Source of the DNA: a virus
DNA: 28,572 bases
Virus record (IMG/VR): IMGVR_UViG_3300025127_000190
Location: 1 to 28,572 of that record
Reading direction: 5' to 3' (one strand)
Each line of letters opens with the position of its first letter. The stretch's first letter is position 1. A program made the translations under genes and the position numbers. The notes beneath the pieces are model-generated. The model saw only the letters and a program-made list of their open reading frames with translations. It made no database searches and was not told where the DNA came from. Below, one piece after another: positions 1-11,095 of the stretch.

Positions 1-155
1 GGTTCCTTGAAGAAAATGACACGATGAAAAAGGAGCAGTATCGTATGTTGGTCATGTTTGAGAATTGGAAGGACGATGCTGACGCTGTTCAAAAGAAGTT
101 GGATGCATGGGGCGTGGATGCGGACACCATTCGTTCTTGGGGAAGTGATTTGTGA
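1..155 (+). CDS. 3' end of an unidentified gene (possibly large terminase subunit)
   Basis: An open frame enters from the left edge (first full codon at base 3) and ends at TGA 153-155, giving the last 50 residues of a protein. The piece is charged and helical, with two Lys/Asp-rich stretches, and ends in SWGSDL. No catalytic motif lies in this fragment. The stop overlaps the ATG of the portal gene by one base (TGATG), so the two are probably translationally coupled. The gene just upstream of a portal gene is commonly the large terminase subunit. That is the best positional guess, but the fragment itself does not show it. Confidence 0.5.
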   Translation, partial: FLEENDTMKKEQYRMLVMFENWKDDADAVQKKLDAWGVDADTIRSWGSDL

Positions 156-1900
156 TGGCAGAAGAACGTGTTAAGGGCGTGCTCGGTCGTTTGGCCGACC
201 GATTTCGACGACGACGCACACCTGAGCCTCAGATGCCGTTGTACACAACGGGCATCCAAGAGCCAGTTATCGTTCAAGGAATTACGATACCTGCATTGTA
301 TTCGGTTGCTTCTGAGAATCTAATCCTTCGTACTGTGCTTTCGACCTTGCAACAAGAGATATTCCGACGTGGGTACTACTGGGACAAGAAGTTTCACAAG
401 AAGTGTATAGAGTGTGACAAGGAATATCAGCACGATGTTGATACGTGCGTCGAATGCGGTGGTGACGTCCGTGACCCTGACCCGAATGAAACAGTATACG
501 GTCGATGGCTCGTCAATCAACGCAATTCGATGGAACAGAACTTCATGGATGTGCTGCGTGAAATAGAATACGACCTCAACATCATGGACGATGCATTCTT
601 GATTCTTGTCAAAGAATACTATGTTGACCCTGAAACCAACGAAGTTGCTTTCTATCGTGTCAAAGAGATTCTACGTGGCGACCCTATCTTCATGCGTATC
701 GTTGCGGACAAGCGAGGTGTACGTGGTGGGCGATACAAGGTGTGCCCATTGCATCGTAACCAAGTTCGTGGCTACAGCGAGACGGACAACAACTGTGAGA
801 TATGCAATCACGAGTTAGAAGACGTACATCACGTCAACACGGGCGGTGCAGGCAAGACACAGTATTATCTCAAAGGTGAAGTTATTCACGTCAGTAAGTA
901 CTATCCTTCCAAGTTGTATGGGAAGTCACCAGTATCAACGCTTTGGCGTCAGGCTATGACACTTACAGCAATGGACAACTACATGTACACAGCGTACAGC
1001 AAACGTCGTGTACCTCGTGGTTTGATTTCTATTACAACAGACAATCTTGAATCGATGAAATCGTTTTGGAAGGGCGTTGATGAGAAACTTGAACGTGACC
1101 CACATTACATTCCGAAGGTCGGTATCGAAAGTCAAAGCGGACGAGGTGGTGTGAACTGGGTCAAGTTCATGGACACGCTTGAAGAGATGCAGTACATCGC
1201 TGTTCGTGACGAAATGCGAACCCGCATTGCAGCGTTCTATGGCGTATCGAACGTGTTCATGATGGACACAGGTAAATCAGGTGGATTGAACAACGAAGGT
1301 TTGCAAATTCTTGTTACCAATCGTGCTGTTGAGTTCGGTCACAAGGTGTACACTGACCATCTCTTCCCACGACTGATGGAAGAAATGGACATCAGCGATT
1401 GGAAACTTACGCTCTATCCAAACGAAGAGGAAGACGAGGTTACTCGACTCCGACGAGACGAGATGGAGGTCAACATTGCACAGCGTATGGCACAACTCGG
1501 ATTCAAGCCTGAACTTATCGAGGAAGGCGGTCGAGATATTCGTTTCATTTACAAACCGATGCAGGAAGGTATGGGCGGTCAACCTCAGATGGGTGGCATG
1601 CCGGGTGGCATGCCCGGTGGTCCTCAACCAATAGCACAGCCCGGTGGCCTGCCAAGTCGGAACATGCCACCACAGTTGGCAGGTGCACTGGCAGGACAGG
1701 CAAGTGCAGGCTTGAGACAAGCACAAGGGCCTGCTTCACAGCCCGGAGGAGAGGGGATGGGTATGCGTACTCCACGTGGACCTGCCAGTCCACAGAATCG
1801 AACAAGCATGGGTTCAGGCGCTCCGTTTTCAAGTGTTCAGCAACGAGGGCCGCAAGGCACACCGCTTAGCCAAGCCATGAACAACATACGAAGAAATTGA
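155..1900 (+). CDS. Portal protein with two Cys-cluster (zinc-knuckle-like) insertions
   Basis: Portal proteins form the dodecameric ring at the capsid vertex through which DNA is packaged and ejected. Identification rests on the length (581 residues), position before the protease and capsid genes, and the C-terminal half, where the stretch around FYGVSNVFMMD followed by a Gly/Asn-rich loop and a long helix resembles the stem and crown of phage portals. The N-terminal half carries C84-x2-C87...C98-x2-C101 and C197-x2-H200...C214-x2-C217, two plausible zinc sites that typical portals lack. The last ~120 residues are Gly/Met/Pro/Gln-rich and probably disordered. A GTG at 152 is also in frame, but ATG 155, fused to the upstream stop as TGATG, is the more natural start. 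SD is weak, consistent with coupling. Confidence 0.85.
   Translation: MAEERVKGVLGRLADRFRRRRTPEPQMPLYTTGIQEPVIVQGITIPALYSVASENLILRTVLSTLQQEIFRRGYYWDKKFHKKCIECDKEYQHDVDTCVECGGDVRDPDPNETVYGRWLVNQRNSMEQNFMDVLREIEYDLNIMDDAFLILVKEYYVDPETNEVAFYRVKEILRGDPIFMRIVADKRGVRGGRYKVCPLHRNQVRGYSETDNNCEICNHELEDVHHVNTGGAGKTQYYLKGEVIHVSKYYPSKLYGKSPVSTLWRQAMTLTAMDNYMYTAYSKRRVPRGLISITTDNLESMKSFWKGVDEKLERDPHYIPKVGIESQSGRGGVNWVKFMDTLEEMQYIAVRDEMRTRIAAFYGVSNVFMMDTGKSGGLNNEGLQILVTNRAVEFGHKVYTDHLFPRLMEEMDISDWKLTLYPNEEEDEVTRLRRDEMEVNIAQRMAQLGFKPELIEEGGRDIRFIYKPMQEGMGGQPQMGGMPGGMPGGPQPIAQPGGLPSRNMPPQLAGALAGQASAGLRQAQGPASQPGGEGMGMRTPRGPASPQNRTSMGSGAPFSSVQQRGPQGTPLSQAMNNIRRN
1591..1614 (+). repeat. Tandem 12-bp repeat in portal C-terminal tail
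   Basis: Two exact copies of GGGTGGCATGCC (1591-1602 and 1603-1614) encode a GGMP-GGMP repeat inside the Gly/Met/Pro-rich tail of the portal protein. It is an in-frame slippage-prone repeat that could change tail length by four residues per unit. Confidence 0.85.
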
Positions 1901-3067: not shown

Positions 3068-6000
3068 GTGACGATTCCGAACCCCAGTGACGGAACACAA
3101 GTATTTGACCCTGCACGAGAGGGCGGCCAGTTTAGTTTTGAAGACGAATCGTTACAGGTCATTGACCCTATGACCGAGCGTGTCGGTATGGGTTTGAAAG
3201 AAGCACCCAAAACAATCTCAGAGTCGTTCCCCGGCCAACACCCGTACGACGGTCGTATACGGCAGCCTCAGTCAGTCAACCACATGGGTCAGGAGTGGAT
3301 GCATCAACAAATTCGACCTGCTACACGTGAACACTTGGGTACATCGAGCGAACACTTTGGTGACATGTCGATGCACCACCCTGACGTTGCACCGCTTTGG
3401 GAAGAGACTGCGGTTGGTGAAAACAACGTCCCTGCATGGTGTGAACGGCTGGATTCACACATTCGTAACGGTGTGTCAGCAGTACATCGTGACAAAGAAC
3501 AGGCACATCGTCAACACTTCAATGACTCAGCGTTGTACACTTATGGTATGTATGGTCCTCACGAAACGTATGTACCTCAGCACGGATTGTATGAACGTGC
3601 TTACAACAATTGGGCGCTGTCTGACGAGGGCAAGCGTTTTGCTACCGAACTTGATGCGGAGGGTATTCATGGACCTGAGCAAGAGCAGTATCTTCGCCAC
3701 TATCACATGGAGATAGCGAGGTCGGGTTGGCAATCGAATAATACAGAAGAACAAACAGGTCGACGAAAAGGCTTGGGCGAGATGGATTACTATCTCGGCC
3801 TTGAGTGGCTTACACCTGCCGAGCGTGCGATGGTGTACAGGCACATCAAAGAACATGGTTTCCATGACAAAAACAACTACACCATCAGTGACATTCATGT
3901 AGGCGACAAGCCTCTTTCGATGGGTCGACTTGTAGCGAACATGCATCAGCGGTATGCACCCGTGTTCAGTCATCATACACGTGACCCTGACGCTACAGGG
4001 CAGGCATTTGCTGTCGGTATGATTCCACTCGGTCAAACCTCTCGCGTAAACCCTGATGAATTGTACAAAGATTTGGAAGATTCAGCGCTGGGTCAAAGAA
4101 TACGTGCGTTCTACGAAAATCACGATGACGAGGTTGAACATTTACCAAGACGTGCCGACAAAGGGTTTCGACAACAAGACAAACCCAAGATGGACATCGA
4201 AGGTGTGTATGCATTGGCAGGTATTAAGGCAGGCTTGGACGGTAAACTTGAGTTTCACAGAAAAGGTGAGTCACCGCATTATGAAGAAGGATGGACAGGT
4301 GACCATGACTGGACAGTCGAAGAAGTTGAGGAGTTCTTGAAACCGCACCTTCTTGCGCGTGACATGCAAGGTGCTGGGCGTAAGGCAAGAAACGAAATCC
4401 AAGCGTACCTCAATCCGTACCTCGCCACCGAAGGCGTAGGTGCACACTCCGATAACTACACGTTTGGCGATATGGAGTCGCTTGCCCATCACTGGAGCGA
4501 ACCGTTTGAAGGCCGAGGTGGTTTGGGCAAGACACATACGACGAAGTTGGACATGCTTCATCAGATGTTGTCGTTAGAGGGAGAGCGTGACGGTCTACTT
4601 GGACGCATGCAGGCAAGAGAAGATTACTTTCAAGACGAATCGCTTGAATCAAAGGGTGGAGAAGTCCTCAACATACACAACAAGGTTAGAGGGCTGATGG
4701 CGCCGTTTGGTCTGCCGTTAAGTGAACTGAGTGAGGCACGACGACAGATTGCACGAGGAAGGGAAACCGACACAGTCTCCGTATCTGAAATCGATGCGAT
4801 GGCGGGTTTACCTGCTGCATTGCATCCTCACAATACGTTCATCGCAGGGACTGGAGCATTAGCAAACGCAAAGGTCAACCAAGGATTACACGGAACCACG
4901 CATTCGCCTGAGCATCACAACGAGGTGTATCAGGCATCGTTAAGAGCAGGTCGTACGCAAGGTAAATCTAAACTAAAGGAATTCAGAAACGAGTTGCACG
5001 GTGATAAAGACCAGTACAGATTCACACACGGTATGGGTCACGCTTTTGGTTTAGCAACAGAAAATGACAAATTAAAACGAGACGGTGACGTTTCGCATCG
5101 AGCGATTCGTTTGATTGGTATGCTTGGCGGACTCAACAACCCAAGAGCACCTTCGGTTGACGGTGTACAGCACCCGAACCAATTTTCGTTTGAAACTGAA
5201 CTACCAATCAAGCGTGAGGATTACAACGTCCGTCAGCGCACACACGTTGACAATTATGAGGCAAGCAAGGACGAGTTGAACATTTTAAATCAAACACTCA
5301 AAGAATTAGAAAGAGGTATGTCAGAAGATGAGCGATTGACTATGGAGCGTTCTTTACAAGATTTAGAAACACGTCCTTTGCGTCAGCATGAAGCAAGATA
5401 CAAGCAACTTCATTCACAAAGAGAGGCACTCAACAATGTGGTTGAAGAATATGACGAGGCTGAAAATGAATTGAATCAGTTGTTTGAACAGCGTGAGTTT
5501 TTTCCTGAGGGGAGCGATGAGCGAGCGCACTTTGACCACCTCATCGAAGAACAACAAGAAGTCCTTGATGAGATTGCCAAGAAGCACTATGGCGAGAACT
5601 CAAGGTCAAGTAGAGAACTTGAACACGATAACACACACCACACGCAAGTCAAAGGCCACCACGACGCTATCGTAGAGATGGCTGATAGGATAGGGCAAGA
5701 GATGCAGAGACAAATGCCTGAACTGTATGAGTCAGTTCCCCCTGATACCATGGCAGCGTGGAAAATGTACACAGCAAATCAATTCCTTGCTCGACAAGAC
5801 GCTGAGCATCACAACATCAGCGCACCAGTAGCAGGCCAACAGATACAAGAAGCACGGGCAAGAGGTGCGATTGATAACGCTCATGACGGTATGTCGAGTC
5901 AACTGCACGAGAACGGTCATGAGATTGACCCTGACATGTCTGTGAGTGAAGCAGGTGAAATGATATTCGGCGATGCTATGAAACCTTACGAAGAACGCAT

Positions 6001-8449
6001 GGTCAAAAATTTGCTCAAAAAGGTACGTGCTTTAGGGAAACCACTGAGGGTCATGACCATGATGGACATGGTTCAGCAAATGGGAGAAGCCGGTGATAAA
6101 CATTTCAAGCCCATGTATGATACGGGGGCGGAGGATGTTCTCAATCAATTGACTGGGTTCAAGCGCCACAAAGTCGATTACGACAACGACCCGAATTACG
6201 GTGTTCCTGAAAAGCGAAGCGTGCCAAGAACCGGTGGGCGTGGAGGTCACATGTCGCACAAAGACATCACATCGAGTCTTGCTTACCGAGCAGCACAGCG
6301 TTTGCATGCTGCTGTGTCGACAGGTGATAGGAAAAGCGAATTAGGCGAACGCTCGATGGAAATAATGACGCCGTCGTCAGACAATCAGGAATCACTCAAA
6401 GGCAAATTCAGAAATGAAAGTTTAGGTTATGAAATCAGAAACCTACCTAACGAGTTGAAAAACGAAGCAACGCTTCACGATATGGTTAACCACTTGCACG
6501 GACTTGTTGTATCAAGTGCCGACGAGTATGACCCAACGAAAATCATCGACACTGAAAAGAAACCTATGTTGATGCACAAACCGATTGGTCGTGGAGGTCA
6601 CCCGAAGTCAAAGGCCACCATTATGTCGATGTTTAACTCAGACGGGTTGCGTGGCAACTTTGGGCACATACACGACATACCGTTTGCGATGGATGTCAAA
6701 GACGGTCAGATGTCGTTCCGAATGTTGCCCAAGCCAAAGAAGATGCGATTGCTCACGCCGAACATGGAAGCAATCAAGGCGATGATGCCCGAACACCATC
6801 ATGGTCACTTTGTTTCACCTTCACAGGCAAAGACCGACCCAAGGATAAGAACTGATATAGCAAGGTCCCCCGTCGCAACACGCGCTAATCAAGTAGGAGA
6901 ACCGTTTATGGACACGCCGGAAGCGATACATCACAAGATGGACGGACCTGCATTGCTGGCTTCGCTGACCAACCCTGATTATATCCGCAAGGATATGCCT
7001 GAGGGCTTGCCATCACTGCAACCAATGCATCGCATTTTTGATGTCGATGACCTTGAACACCTGCGTGGATTCACAGGCGATTGGGTCGTTAGTGACTATC
7101 CTGAGGGCGACCGAATGTTCGTCACAAAGAAGGACGACGATGTCAAAAGTAAGGGTTCACTTACAGACGAAGAGAAGAAAGCGTTCAAGCAGGTATCTGA
7201 CAAGGATTTCTTGGTTGACGTTATACGACGTGAGAGTGGATTGTACATCTTTGAGGTCATCGAGTTCGATGGCAAGGAGGTTCACGACATACCGATTCAA
7301 GACCGCATCAAGTTGTTGCGTGGTGCGCTACAAAGCGTCGAGGGTGTCGAAGCCCCAAGCGCATCCGACACGAAGTTGACCGACGATGTCGGACTGGCTG
7401 ATGCTATCAAGAACATAGAGAGCGACCGCATCTTGTTGCGTGATGCAAAGTCTACGTACATGAAAGGCGAAGCACGCCATCCCAAGTGGGTCATGTATCA
7501 GAAAGGCAACGACGTCACACTCATGGTGCTTGAGCGACGAGGCGAGTCACCGTACACGTATCGACTCGGCACAGGTCCAATCATCCATGGCGAGGACTTG
7601 GGCGACCGTGCAGTCAAGATTGAGGATGACATTTACATGGACATCGGTGCATCGTTCAATGCTCCTGAGAAGTATGAGGTCGGTGACTTCGTCAAGGTCA
7701 ACGTCACAAGCGTGACAGAAGGTGAAGCATCTGAAAACCAAAAGGTGTACACCGTTCACGCACCACGTATCGAGGGCGAGGCTGAGGGCGAACCACTGGT
7801 CAGCACAGAGAGCCTTGCCATGTTAGCAAAGGCTGACATGGCGCAAAGTCCACTCAACATCTATAGAAGCGACCGTCACATTCGTGTATCGTTTGAAGCA
7901 GGCGATGTTCTGTACAAGGCGACCACACGTGGCTCGTACTGGACTGTGCACACACCTGTAGCCGATAACGACTATCTGATTCGTTTATCTGAGAGTCAAC
8001 GACCGTTTTGGTCACCCGTAGCAGGTGTCATGCTCAAAGGCGACTTTTCTATAGAAGAACGAGAGGACAAGGCTGAGGTTCACGAAAGCAAAGGCGACGG
8101 TAAACCACTCATCCCTCCAAGAAAAATCCAAGACACGAACAGGTGGGACAAAGAGAAGAACAAGGTTATGAAGAAGGGTGTCGAACTTCTTGAGAAACTT
8201 TTGGCGAAGAGTGGTGTGGGTCAAGTAGGTGCCAGTATGTCAGGACCCAAAGGACTCGGCATAGACTACGGTACACCAATTCAATCACCGACAGGACCGA
8301 CAAACCCTGACGATGCGAAAACTATGCCTGACTATGATGTGCGTGACATTGAGCGTGACAGGAAAGACGAAGAAGAAGAAACGAAGGACGTCGAGGAAGT
8401 TGATAGTAAGTTAGAACTTACAGAAGATAAGGCTGTCTACCATATCTGA
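3068..8449 (+). CDS. Giant head-region protein with C-terminal degenerate DNA-ligase-like domain (1793 aa)
   Basis: The GTG start (3068) directly follows an in-frame TAA (3065-3067) and has the SD GGCGGTGAT. The first ~1300 residues match no family I know: rich in His, Met and Glu, mostly helical, with a long coiled coil at ~728-842. Residues ~1325-1590 resemble an ATP-dependent DNA ligase/nucleotidyltransferase plus OB fold. LYIFEVIEFDGKEVHDIPI (1392-1410) matches the ligase motif IIIa region ending in the PL-x-x-R-x-x-L helix, and an OB-like strand set follows with VGDFVKVNVTSV. However, the motif I position reads YPEGDR (1344-1349) instead of KxDGxR, and motif V reads KWVMYQK (1473-1479), without the two inner lysines. 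It should not adenylate. LAK-AD (K1588) and LAK-SG (K1714) fit the putative protease motif, and the tail is acidic. Position between portal and protease suggests a packaged internal or minor head protein. Confidence 0.8.
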   Translation: MTIPNPSDGTQVFDPAREGGQFSFEDESLQVIDPMTERVGMGLKEAPKTISESFPGQHPYDGRIRQPQSVNHMGQEWMHQQIRPATREHLGTSSEHFGDMSMHHPDVAPLWEETAVGENNVPAWCERLDSHIRNGVSAVHRDKEQAHRQHFNDSALYTYGMYGPHETYVPQHGLYERAYNNWALSDEGKRFATELDAEGIHGPEQEQYLRHYHMEIARSGWQSNNTEEQTGRRKGLGEMDYYLGLEWLTPAERAMVYRHIKEHGFHDKNNYTISDIHVGDKPLSMGRLVANMHQRYAPVFSHHTRDPDATGQAFAVGMIPLGQTSRVNPDELYKDLEDSALGQRIRAFYENHDDEVEHLPRRADKGFRQQDKPKMDIEGVYALAGIKAGLDGKLEFHRKGESPHYEEGWTGDHDWTVEEVEEFLKPHLLARDMQGAGRKARNEIQAYLNPYLATEGVGAHSDNYTFGDMESLAHHWSEPFEGRGGLGKTHTTKLDMLHQMLSLEGERDGLLGRMQAREDYFQDESLESKGGEVLNIHNKVRGLMAPFGLPLSELSEARRQIARGRETDTVSVSEIDAMAGLPAALHPHNTFIAGTGALANAKVNQGLHGTTHSPEHHNEVYQASLRAGRTQGKSKLKEFRNELHGDKDQYRFTHGMGHAFGLATENDKLKRDGDVSHRAIRLIGMLGGLNNPRAPSVDGVQHPNQFSFETELPIKREDYNVRQRTHVDNYEASKDELNILNQTLKELERGMSEDERLTMERSLQDLETRPLRQHEARYKQLHSQREALNNVVEEYDEAENELNQLFEQREFFPEGSDERAHFDHLIEEQQEVLDEIAKKHYGENSRSSRELEHDNTHHTQVKGHHDAIVEMADRIGQEMQRQMPELYESVPPDTMAAWKMYTANQFLARQDAEHHNISAPVAGQQIQEARARGAIDNAHDGMSSQLHENGHEIDPDMSVSEAGEMIFGDAMKPYEERMVKNLLKKVRALGKPLRVMTMMDMVQQMGEAGDKHFKPMYDTGAEDVLNQLTGFKRHKVDYDNDPNYGVPEKRSVPRTGGRGGHMSHKDITSSLAYRAAQRLHAAVSTGDRKSELGERSMEIMTPSSDNQESLKGKFRNESLGYEIRNLPNELKNEATLHDMVNHLHGLVVSSADEYDPTKIIDTEKKPMLMHKPIGRGGHPKSKATIMSMFNSDGLRGNFGHIHDIPFAMDVKDGQMSFRMLPKPKKMRLLTPNMEAIKAMMPEHHHGHFVSPSQAKTDPRIRTDIARSPVATRANQVGEPFMDTPEAIHHKMDGPALLASLTNPDYIRKDMPEGLPSLQPMHRIFDVDDLEHLRGFTGDWVVSDYPEGDRMFVTKKDDDVKSKGSLTDEEKKAFKQVSDKDFLVDVIRRESGLYIFEVIEFDGKEVHDIPIQDRIKLLRGALQSVEGVEAPSASDTKLTDDVGLADAIKNIESDRILLRDAKSTYMKGEARHPKWVMYQKGNDVTLMVLERRGESPYTYRLGTGPIIHGEDLGDRAVKIEDDIYMDIGASFNAPEKYEVGDFVKVNVTSVTEGEASENQKVYTVHAPRIEGEAEGEPLVSTESLAMLAKADMAQSPLNIYRSDRHIRVSFEAGDVLYKATTRGSYWTVHTPVADNDYLIRLSESQRPFWSPVAGVMLKGDFSIEEREDKAEVHESKGDGKPLIPPRKIQDTNRWDKEKNKVMKKGVELLEKLLAKSGVGQVGASMSGPKGLGIDYGTPIQSPTGPTNPDDAKTMPDYDVRDIERDRKDEEEETKDVEEVDSKLELTEDKAVYHI

Positions 8450-8458
8450 TTAAATAGA

Positions 8459-9913
8459 ATGACGCCTGTAAGAACTACAATGGTCATGGCATCGCCACTA
8501 CAATCCGCCCGATTTGAAGGCGGTGGCACCATATCGCTTCTCAAGAGCGACAATGGCCTCGTGATTGCAGGTTATGCGAGCGTCGAAATGGTCGACAAGC
8601 AAGGTGACCTCATCACCACAGGTGCACTCAAGGGTGCATTTGACAGTTTCATGAAAGCGGACGGATTCCGCAACGTACAACTCGCACACTCCAACATCCA
8701 AGTTGGAGAAGTTATTCCACAGTACACTGACAGCAGTGGTCGACTGTGGAAGTCCGGTGTCGATGACGCTGGACTCTTCGTTGTCATCCAAGTACGTGAT
8801 GACATCGAAAAGGCTCGTGAAGTAGCCAATGAAATTCGCAAAGGCGCCCTTCGGGGTTTCAGTATTGGTGGACAAGCATTCAAGAGAATGCGAAAAGCCG
8901 ATTCGGAGCACGGTGATTACACCGAGATTTCCAAACTGGAACTTCACGAGGTAACGATTTGTGAAAAAGGTATAAACCCGGAGGCGACATTCCGTATATT
9001 GAAGGAGGACATAACAATGACCGAAAACACAGATATGAACACAATGAGCGAATTGTCGTCCGTCTTGGACCGCATCAACACCCGCCTCGACGTAATGGAG
9101 AAAGGTGATATGCCCGAAGGCTTGAAACAGCACATGAAGGATAAGAAAGACGACAAGGATGAAGACAAAGGCAAAGAAATGGCTGATGAAGGCAAAGACG
9201 AAAAGATGTACGGTTCCGAACACAAAGGAATGCATGATTCTGAAAACAAAGGAATGCATGGCGACATGGAAAAATCTGAGTACTCTGATGTCATTACCCA
9301 AGATTACTTGCACTGGATGGAAAACACCTTGAAGTCGGGTGGCGTTGATATTAACAGCGCTCGTGCACACTTTGATGCACTTGAGAAGGCACAACTTGGT
9401 GGCTTCGACAACCCATCTTCTGTTGACGGTGCCGATTACTTCGGCGGCCAAGTACGTGGCCGAGCACAAGAAGGCGGCAACCCATCTACAGGCGCAATTG
9501 GCAAACTCAACAGCGGCTCCAAAGCCGATGTTGCAAAGGGCTATTTGTCTCCTGAGGACCTTTCCCCTGCACAACTTGAAGAAGCATATGCTGCTTACAA
9601 GGCTGCTTCCATTGAGAAGCAACTCAAGGGAACTCTCAGCGATGTCTTCGCTGACCGACTCGCCAAGGAACAGCGCAGTGAGGCTGAAAGCCGACAAGCA
9701 CAAGCATTCGATGCTCGTGCTCCACTCGCATCAATCGAAAAGGCAGTCGCTGCTCTAAGCGACCGAATCGATAACCTTGCATCAGGTGCAACCGGAACGA
9801 CTATCCAAAAGTCCGCACCTGTTTCTAACGTTGAAATTCCATCCACTGTAGACATGGCAAACATGTCTTGGGATGAAGTACACAGCCTCGCAGGAAGTGT
9901 ATTCCACAACTGA
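8459..9913 (+). CDS. HK97-type prohead protease fused to scaffold (484 aa)
   Basis: Residues ~20-182 match the HK97/U35-type prohead protease fold: the catalytic His in VQLAHSNIQVG (H77), the Ser in LRGFSIGGQA (S135), and the conserved acidic strand LHEVTICEKGINPEATF (E164 region). Residues ~187-484 are a highly charged, helical scaffold, Lys/Asp/Glu-rich at 220-275 with an 8-residue KGMH repeat, coiled coils at ~360-445 and a terminal MSWDEVHSLA motif. The protease should process scaffold and head proteins after capsid assembly and then itself. ATG 8459 has only weak SD-like TGAT. ATGs at 8480 and 8486 are alternative starts. A strong internal SD precedes Met187, so scaffold is probably also made alone (9017-9913). 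The major capsid gene follows 15 bases later. Confidence 0.88.
   Translation: MTPVRTTMVMASPLQSARFEGGGTISLLKSDNGLVIAGYASVEMVDKQGDLITTGALKGAFDSFMKADGFRNVQLAHSNIQVGEVIPQYTDSSGRLWKSGVDDAGLFVVIQVRDDIEKAREVANEIRKGALRGFSIGGQAFKRMRKADSEHGDYTEISKLELHEVTICEKGINPEATFRILKEDITMTENTDMNTMSELSSVLDRINTRLDVMEKGDMPEGLKQHMKDKKDDKDEDKGKEMADEGKDEKMYGSEHKGMHDSENKGMHGDMEKSEYSDVITQDYLHWMENTLKSGGVDINSARAHFDALEKAQLGGFDNPSSVDGADYFGGQVRGRAQEGGNPSTGAIGKLNSGSKADVAKGYLSPEDLSPAQLEEAYAAYKAASIEKQLKGTLSDVFADRLAKEQRSEAESRQAQAFDARAPLASIEKAVAALSDRIDNLASGATGTTIQKSAPVSNVEIPSTVDMANMSWDEVHSLAGSVFHN
9002..9019 (+). promoter_or_regulatory. Strong internal ribosome binding site for scaffold
   Basis: AAGGAGG at 9002-9008, one of the best SD matches in the window, lies 8 bases before an in-frame ATG (9017-9019) at residue 187 of the protease-scaffold gene, exactly where the protease domain ends. 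Its strength and position argue for use as a start, giving free scaffold in excess of protease. Confidence 0.75.
9017..9913 (+). CDS. Nested in-frame scaffold protein (298 aa)
   Basis: Proposed product of internal initiation at ATG 9017 inside the protease gene, sharing its stop. Scaffold proteins guide capsid-protein assembly and are degraded before DNA packaging. The segment begins at the domain boundary, is very hydrophilic, has an 8-residue repeat (KGMH twice), long predicted coiled coils and a conserved C-terminal MxWxxVHxLA motif that could contact capsid protein. The layout equals lambda C/Nu3, where the scaffold is an in-frame internal product of the protease gene. MEK-GD (K215 in the fusion) and IQK-SA (K451) fit the proposed cut motif. 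Visible evidence is the SD and domain boundary. Expression is inferred. Confidence 0.7.
   Translation: MTENTDMNTMSELSSVLDRINTRLDVMEKGDMPEGLKQHMKDKKDDKDEDKGKEMADEGKDEKMYGSEHKGMHDSENKGMHGDMEKSEYSDVITQDYLHWMENTLKSGGVDINSARAHFDALEKAQLGGFDNPSSVDGADYFGGQVRGRAQEGGNPSTGAIGKLNSGSKADVAKGYLSPEDLSPAQLEEAYAAYKAASIEKQLKGTLSDVFADRLAKEQRSEAESRQAQAFDARAPLASIEKAVAALSDRIDNLASGATGTTIQKSAPVSNVEIPSTVDMANMSWDEVHSLAGSVFHN
9222..9260 (+). repeat. 24-bp-period direct repeat in scaffold
   Basis: ACAAAGGAATGCATG occurs at 9222-9236 and 9246-9260, offset by 24 bases. It encodes an eight-residue unit of the form (E/S)(H/N)KGMH(D/G)(S/D) in the hydrophilic linker between protease and scaffold helices. Confidence 0.85.
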
Positions 9914-9928
9914 ATGGAGTGATTAAGA

Positions 9929-11095
9929 ATGGCAAGAAACTATCTAAGAACAGTAACCGACATGGAACGCTACTACTACGGTGCAGGCTCAAACATGGGC
10001 TTTCACTACTCAGGTAGCGAACTTTTGAAAGCAGACGCACCACTATTGTCCACAACTGCTGGTACCTACCAAGCAATCTATGGACGAAAGGTTTGGAGCC
10101 AGTTGAACCAAGAGTTCAACGCATTCTCCATCCTTCCTAAGAAACCTTGGGACCGAAGTGGATGGCGTGTCGTAACCGCACGACCTGACACCACCAAAGG
10201 TGGAGGTATTGCGGAGAACGGTACACTACCGGACACCACAAAACCAACTTTCCAAAACATCGCTGCAAAGCCTAAGACCATTGCACACACCTTCGACATG
10301 AGTGAAGTTGCAATCTTCCTCAACGACAAGGATGACGGTCTCGGCGACATTCGCAGTGTTCTCAAGGAAGAAATGGGTAAGCACCACGCTGAGGAAATCA
10401 ACAAGATGCTTCTCCAAGACGTGACTACACCTGCTGGCAACGACTACGAGTCTCTCGACCGTGTCACCTCAGGTTCAATCACTGCAAGCGGAGATGCTGC
10501 TGACACCATGGACTTTGGTGGAGCCGGAAACGATTACGGAACAGCCGGTGATGAAGACATTTACAGCATCGACCGAAGCGGCAACTCTTGGTCCGAAGCC
10601 GAGGTCAACACCTCTGGTGCAAAGGGAACCAACCGTGTTCTCTCGCTTGACCACCTCGACGACATCTTCCAAAAAATTTGGGTGCGTGGTGGAAACCCCA
10701 AGGTCATCCTCACTGGATATGATACACTTATGCGCCTTCAACAACTTCTCCAGTCGCAACAGCGATTTATGGAAGAGAAGCGTGTCACCCCTACCTTCAA
10801 CGGTGTAAAGGGTGTGCCCGGTGTTGAAGCAGGTTTCATCGTTGCTACTTACAACGGTGTCCCAATCATTCCATCCAAGGACGTACAACCTGACGGCATC
10901 AGCCGTATGTACTTCTTGGACACTGACTACATACACTTTAGTGTCGCAAAACCAACTCAATACTTTGAGTCAGGTATCGAAACTGGAGACCCATTCGCCA
11001 TCAACCGCCTCGGTCAAGAAGGACTTTACCGAACTATGGGTGAATTGTGGACTACTTTCTTTGGAGGTCATGGTTCAATCCGAGACTTGTCTTGA
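9929..11095 (+). CDS. Major capsid protein, HK97 fold (388 aa)
   Basis: Builds the icosahedral shell. Identified from position directly after the protease/scaffold, length, and HK97-fold hallmarks: an N-arm, a long helix region (residues ~125-155, with DIRSVLKEEMGKHHAEEINK), a Gly/Asp-rich variable loop at ~165-210, a P-domain/A-domain stretch (LDDIFQKIWVRGGNPKVILTGYD), and a C-terminal receptor-like segment with YNGVPIIPSKD and LGQEGLYRTMGEL. SD is GGAGTGAT, 8 bases upstream. There is no long N-terminal delta domain, which agrees with a separate scaffold. LLK-AD at 32-36 could be a short N-terminal cleavage site leaving Ala35 as the mature end. Confidence 0.9.
   Translation: MARNYLRTVTDMERYYYGAGSNMGFHYSGSELLKADAPLLSTTAGTYQAIYGRKVWSQLNQEFNAFSILPKKPWDRSGWRVVTARPDTTKGGGIAENGTLPDTTKPTFQNIAAKPKTIAHTFDMSEVAIFLNDKDDGLGDIRSVLKEEMGKHHAEEINKMLLQDVTTPAGNDYESLDRVTSGSITASGDAADTMDFGGAGNDYGTAGDEDIYSIDRSGNSWSEAEVNTSGAKGTNRVLSLDHLDDIFQKIWVRGGNPKVILTGYDTLMRLQQLLQSQQRFMEEKRVTPTFNGVKGVPGVEAGFIVATYNGVPIIPSKDVQPDGISRMYFLDTDYIHFSVAKPTQYFESGIETGDPFAINRLGQEGLYRTMGELWTTFFGGHGSIRDLS

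Follow-up and report, generated by a model that had tools for sequence, protein, structure and literature searches.

Gene organization of the locus

The window, that is, the whole stretch of DNA analysed here, is a 28.6-kb virus record that carries a portal gene, three small genes, a giant ORF, a protease gene, a capsid gene and further structural genes. The main features are given below.

152..1900, + strand: portal protein, 28-30% identical to Druskaviridae portals
3068..8449, + strand: giant ORF of the head module, 1793 aa, with a ligase-like domain near the C-terminus
3089..6937, + strand: variable N-terminal cassette, residues ~8-1290, swapped in frame, without a Pfam domain
7013..7792, + strand: ligase-like NTase and OB domain, residues ~1316-1575 (AF2, Foldseek, Pfam)
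7853..8446, + strand: conserved C-terminal tail, residues 1596-1793, as strongly conserved as the ligase-like domain
8459..9913, + strand: S78-type prohead protease
9929..11095, + strand: HK97-type major capsid protein (MCP), 34-35% identical to the HVTV-1 MCP

An earlier note on this DNA had placed a ligase-like domain between portal and protease genes, and the domain does lie at that position, in a head gene module. Complete homologous ORFs are 1683-2013 aa long and are sited between portal and protease. A portal gene upstream and an S78 protease gene downstream were found at 110 of 117 complete loci; at the remaining seven one neighbour was undetected, and some contigs among the 117 were fetched twice. 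The product of the giant ORF is thus likely to be a head-module protein, and the label 'packaged head protein' given to it earlier is drawn from this synteny. No relative was found by tblastn among annotated phages or in the sampled bacterial and archaeal genomes.

At one related locus (L002:1037-6543) two frames of 1007 and 838 aa stand in place of the single giant ORF, owing to a frameshift, a sequencing error or a natural split. In the portal protein (152-1900) CxxC motifs occur in two sets, CIECDKEYQHDVDTCVECGG and CPLHRN...CEICNHE, which may form a zinc-ribbon insert; the Pfam double zinc ribbon matches it at E 0.029 only.

The window is probably part of a magrovirus-like genome

Relatives of the window are 50-109 kb in length, several of them 90-109 kb. 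One of these (G002, 90.8 kb) encodes PolB, a clamp-loader-like AAA ATPase, a primase-like gene, an ERCC4 nuclease, a pyrimidine-dimer glycosylase and a thermosome, and PolB was present in six of the eight relatives tested. Druskaviridae have been grouped with magroviruses (PMC8651126). In view of the replisome genes of the relatives and the Druskaviridae-matching portal and MCP, the window is regarded as magrovirus-like; magroviruses infect marine archaea. It is probably a fragment of such a virus, its relatives having the ~90-110 kb genome size and the replisome of Magrovirales. Poseidoniales (MGII) are the candidate host: the thermosome gene fits the published MGII virus clade 1, and a search for a direct link of these viruses to this host found none. 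The tail module of the same relative contains an ORF of 4411 aa (G002:C1:39493-52728).

The C-terminal region of the giant protein has a ligase fold

The window protein matches Pfam PF01068 (DNA_ligase_A_M) at E=1.7e-4, with 21.8 bits against a curated cut-off of 26.2. The same family matches all 41 aligned homologues at E<1 (best 4.8e-8), and the curated cut-off is passed by 15 of 32 relatives, with scores up to 33.3 bits. AlphaFold2 modelling of residues 1316-1595 with 41 homologues gave a pLDDT of 86.6 and a pTM of 0.73. An earlier run on residues 1296-1660 had reached a pLDDT of only 53, yet it retrieved ligases; trimming and the addition of divergent rows raised the quality. When the model was compared with the PDB using Foldseek, the best 50 matches were all ATP-dependent DNA ligases (E 1e-10 to 1e-7), so the structure search proposed in the earlier note leads to ligases and not to an unrelated fold. 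Among viral matches, an 827-aa protein came first (26% identity, E 6e-23), followed by DNA ligases and capping enzymes. TM-scores of the model were moderate (0.41-0.55 by query), as would be expected if the NTase and OB parts were turned differently towards each other. Thus, the NTase-OB domain of ligase type that had been proposed from the letters is borne out by Pfam, AF2 and Foldseek.

With phmmer, the window region gave only chance FKBP matches among PDB sequences, and a family profile reached ligases weakly (E 0.0025-0.17). Against 21 archaeal ligases hhalign gave a probability of 31, and in a home-made profile alignment the local score fell inside the shuffle range; the narrowness of the two profiles accounts for these weak scores. 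A T7 ligase search brought up chiefly T7-like (Autographiviridae-type) phage ligases and was set aside.

Catalytic residues are replaced at the ligase motifs

The motif positions within the domain are as follows.

7097..7114, + strand: motif I slot YPEGDR, residues 1344-1349; Lys of KxDGxR replaced by Tyr, G1347 and R1349 kept
7208..7228, + strand: presumed motif III strand FLVDVIR, residues 1381-1387, assigned by topology only; Glu position hydrophobic
7241..7282, + strand: motif IIIa-like LYIFEVIEFDGKEV, residues 1392-1405; 0/300 shuffles
7424..7441, + strand: motif IV-like DRILLR, residues 1453-1458; Glu loosely D/E, Lys replaced by an almost invariant Arg
7484..7501, + strand: motif V-like KWVMYQ, residues 1473-1478; every homologue has M/L/V/I for the first Lys

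The strings on which the earlier proposal was based are all found where it had put them: YPEGDR at 1344-1349, LYIFEVIEFDGKEVHDIPI at 1392-1410 followed by R-I-K-L-L-R, and KWVMYQK at 1473-1479. Blocks for motif I, motif IIIa, motifs IV-V and the first OB strand were placed independently on the archaeal ligase profile (n=21) and were collinear. Shuffled sequences scored as high in 0 of 300 cases for IIIa, 11 of 300 for motif I, 34 of 300 for IV-V and 121 of 300 for the OB strand. The shuffle control is decisive for IIIa only; it is suggestive for motif I and weak for IV-V and OB.

This placement aligns Y1344 with the nucleophile Lys and pairs G1347 and R1349 with the G and R of KxDGxR. A shorter version of the motif I block was placed incorrectly on the ligase profile. 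The HMMER local alignment of the window starts at residue ~1348 (profile position 79), and the motif I register is ambiguous in the window alone. Pfam aligns the same stretch of the relatives to the motif I region (profile 17-78), which supports the register of Y1344. The replacement of the adenylated Lys by Y1344, as first read from the sequence, is therefore upheld. Among 125 distinct homologues the slot is occupied by W in 61, M in 48, Y in 9, L in 4 and F in 3. Lys is never found at the canonical position (0/125), which answers the question of whether any homologue retains it.

At the presumed motif III, where placement by sequence failed and the assignment is topological, the Glu position is I/V/F/T across homologues. 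If one residue is inserted after the Y..G loop, the first Lys of motif V is matched by M1476. The earlier reading, in which both motif V lysines were replaced, stands for the first, which is hydrophobic in all homologues; the second varies among them as K/R/S/Q. The pocket keeps G1347, R1349, R1458 and a Y-x-x-G-x-x-R-H-P-K-W loop, and R1470 and K1473 in the motif V loop are invariant basic residues. The retention of pocket residues beyond the needs of a scaffold makes ligand binding or another activity possible.

The homologues with W in the slot read SKWYDGKR; a Lys precedes the normal slot by one residue in 60 of 61, and DGI is frequent at motif III. The slot states are clustered on the tree. 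With the shifted Lys and the frequent DGI, this group looks closer to a working ancestor. The SKWYDGKR sister clade is large (L199, L205-L284, e.g. L237:6001-6858) and keeps YDGxR.

A ligase fold together with the loss of catalytic residues is very likely. With its active-site residues lost and the domain nevertheless very strongly conserved, the 'DNA ligase' that the literature ascribes to these viruses probably serves as a structural component rather than as an enzyme.

Selection and charge

For residues 1316-1595, comparison with a near relative (L003) gave dN 0.009 and dS 0.35, and comparison with L009 gave dN 0.065 and dS 1.40. The dN/dS of ~0.03 against the near relative indicates that the domain is not decaying. 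It has a pI of 4.7 and a net charge of -20 over 280 aa. The family mean is -4.9 per 100 aa versus +0.1 for archaeal ligases. The virus's own PolB and protease are likewise acidic, and the acidity of the domain is therefore not decisive with regard to DNA binding; it counts mildly against it.

The N-terminal part is variable and the C-terminal end is fixed

The ligase-like domain and the tail are the best conserved portions of the giant protein. When the window is compared with L003, identity is ~35% over residues ~8-1290, whereas residues 1300-1793 show 96-100% protein identity and the flanking genes ~90% DNA identity. Judging from these identities, residues ~8-1290 are swapped as an in-frame cassette between near-identical viruses, with the boundary at the ligase-like domain. 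In the comparison with L003/L004, residues ~8-1290 are exchanged, and the portal, the ligase-like end, the protease and the capsid genes stay ~90% identical.

No Pfam domain, toxin domains included, was found in the N-terminal part. There was no MuF match in the window ORF or in the N-terminal parts of seven homologues, and neither MuF nor another known portal-binding domain was found in the giant protein. An N-terminal ligase DNA-binding domain was not recognised upstream of the ligase-like domain. A dead zincin in the N-terminal part (HExxH-like, HGMGH at 654) was considered and rejected, the motif being unconserved among homologues.

Comparison with known systems

The domain was compared with ATP-dependent DNA ligases of PF01068, namely those of Thermococcus, Pyrococcus and Archaeoglobus, human LIG1/3/4 and the ligase domain of mycobacterial LigD. 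It shares with them the NTase and OB fold, the motif order I, IIIa, IV, V, the GxR of motif I, the IIIa strand-helix and the Y..G..R...KW loop. It differs from them in lacking both the nucleophile Lys and the first Lys of motif V, in having a hydrophobic residue at the presumed motif III Glu, in its shortened loops and its acidity, and in its fusion to a head-module protein of ~1300 aa.

Mu gp30 (MuF), with its inactive PBECR, and the MuF/polyvalent proteins also combine a dead or diverse enzyme domain with a large portal-adjacent protein; in the available parts of these accounts the ligase fold is not among the reported domains (PMC5512222, PMC5576092). In contrast to them, the giant protein has no detected MuF domain, and its fixed and variable ends are reversed. 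In HVTV-1 (Druskaviridae), gp113-gp115 are large proteins too and occupy the slot between the homologous portal and capsid genes; they have no detectable similarity to the giant-ORF family profile. In that slot (L122:4230-12564), which also holds a head assembly protein, gp113 has a zincin-like motif, HEMGHAFH. The gp115 protein is annotated as a zeta toxin and has a C-terminal ADP-ribosyltransferase-like sequence; an ADP-ribosyltransferase has been reported for HVTV-1 in the portal-capsid slot.

Function of the ligase-like domain

The best explanation overall, with a probability of about 0.5, is that the domain is a repurposed binding or anchoring module. Long ago, magrovirus-like tailed viruses of archaea would have taken an ATP-dependent DNA ligase core (NTase and OB) into their giant head-module gene. 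The core would then have lost its catalytic residues, strong selection keeping it as a non-enzymatic module. The giant protein may be assembled into the procapsid beside the portal. The fixed ligase-like domain and tail would then form a docking or scaffold end that binds another virion protein (portal, protease or capsid) or, alternatively, a nucleic-acid or nucleotide ligand via the remnant pocket. The exchangeable part of ~1290 residues would take on the variable task, perhaps leaving the capsid along with the DNA, and would vary with host or rivals. The reading builds on the computed fold, a nucleophile Lys that is missing from every homologue, the purifying selection and the synteny with portal, protease and capsid genes. 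It also draws on the large effector-like or toxin-like proteins that related haloviruses have at the corresponding position, and on the dead enzyme domains known from portal-adjacent proteins such as Mu gp30. The pairing of a fixed C-terminus with an N-terminus that varies points to docking of the dead ligase and the tail to a conserved partner; for this role, drawn from conservation and synteny, the chances are about even.

It is doubtful that the catalytically dead domain keeps ligase-like binding of DNA (ends, nicks or the packaged terminus) in the capsid or at injection. The NTase-OB fold, the invariant R1470 and K1473 and the position of the gene beside portal and packaging genes are in favour of such binding, but the strong acidity of the domain and the lack of a recognised DNA-binding domain upstream are against it. 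Retention for binding DNA ends or nicks, as suggested in the earlier note, is so far unsupported, given a net charge of -20 where archaeal ligase cores are near neutral.

Somewhat less likely still is an injected, polyvalent or toxin-like effector whose ligase-like domain targets the host, for example as a decoy ligase on clamp or replication proteins. The zeta toxin/ADP-ribosyltransferase proteins in the Druskaviridae slot agree with it, as do the packaged portal-adjacent polyvalent phage proteins, including the inactive PBECR of Mu gp30 (PMC5512222). Polymorphic toxins, however, vary the effector end and fix the delivery end, whereas in the giant protein it is the ligase-like end that stays fixed, and the N-terminal part yielded no toxin domain.

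It is improbable that the domain is still active as a divergent ligase, capping-like enzyme or nucleotidyl transferase of another kind, with a displaced lysine or some different residue doing the work. The early Lys and the kept YDGxR of the SKWYDGKR clade, the common lysine at 1354 and the very strong conservation could be read in this way, but the spacing of the Lys is unlike KxDG, the displaced Lys is missing in the other half of the family, the window included, and no member keeps the presumed motif III Glu or the first Lys of motif V. A resemblance due to chance, or a beta-rich fold unrelated to ligases, to which the weak hhalign and local profile scores could point, is largely refuted already by the Pfam matches in every aligned homologue, the ligase-only best 50 of Foldseek and the collinear motif blocks.

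Relation to the annotated magrovirus ligase

A DNA ligase is reported to be encoded by almost all magrovirus vOTUs and is listed with PolB, ERCC4 nuclease and glycosylase (PMC10160649), all three of which are present in G002. An ATP-dependent DNA ligase is also listed among the replication genes of magroviruses (Magrovirales; Aoguangviridae, Apasviridae) (PMC10768690, PMC12999244). For a group A magrovirus the 'ATP-dependent DNA ligase gene' is placed together with the prohead protease gene (PMC7318539), the same adjacency as seen here. From this pairing we infer that the annotated magrovirus ligase is the giant ORF. The identification, made against published descriptions, is probable; named reference genomes of magroviruses are OR863078 and ON649702.

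In the literature the magrovirus ligase is treated as a replication enzyme, whereas the sole PF01068 domain that turned up here across 32 relatives has a dead catalytic site and belongs to the head module. Outside the giant ORF, PF01068 had no match in these 32 relatives, some of whose records may be fragments and several of which are of full magrovirus length. The NAD ligase family PF01653 was not found in 10 records of long relatives, nor the RNA ligase family PF09414 in 12. No mention of a magrovirus ligase as inactive or as part of the head module was met in the literature searched (the original magrovirus and 2025 Poseidoniales virus papers lie outside this set).

Three points go beyond the earlier note: the C-terminus is fixed where the N-terminus is swapped, the virus is probably a magrovirus, and the gene has likely been mis-annotated as the replicative ligase of the virus. 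A bolder reading, in which a whole group of abundant ocean viruses has a pseudo-ligase in the virion that recognises, on entry, the packaged genome end or the host replication machinery and brings exchangeable N-terminal cargo into the archaeal cell, is tentative and rather unlikely.

The finding matters chiefly as a probable correction to the magrovirus gene inventory and as a putative virion pseudo-ligase. Magroviruses have been described as near host-independent in replication, partly on account of their encoded DNA ligase. If the annotated ligase is the dead head-module domain, they must borrow a host ligase, and the annotation repeated in papers and ICTV profiles would need correcting. 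The domain would then also be a clear example of how the fold of a replication enzyme can be taken over for use in the virion; its interface could be tested, and its partner region is modular and recombines.
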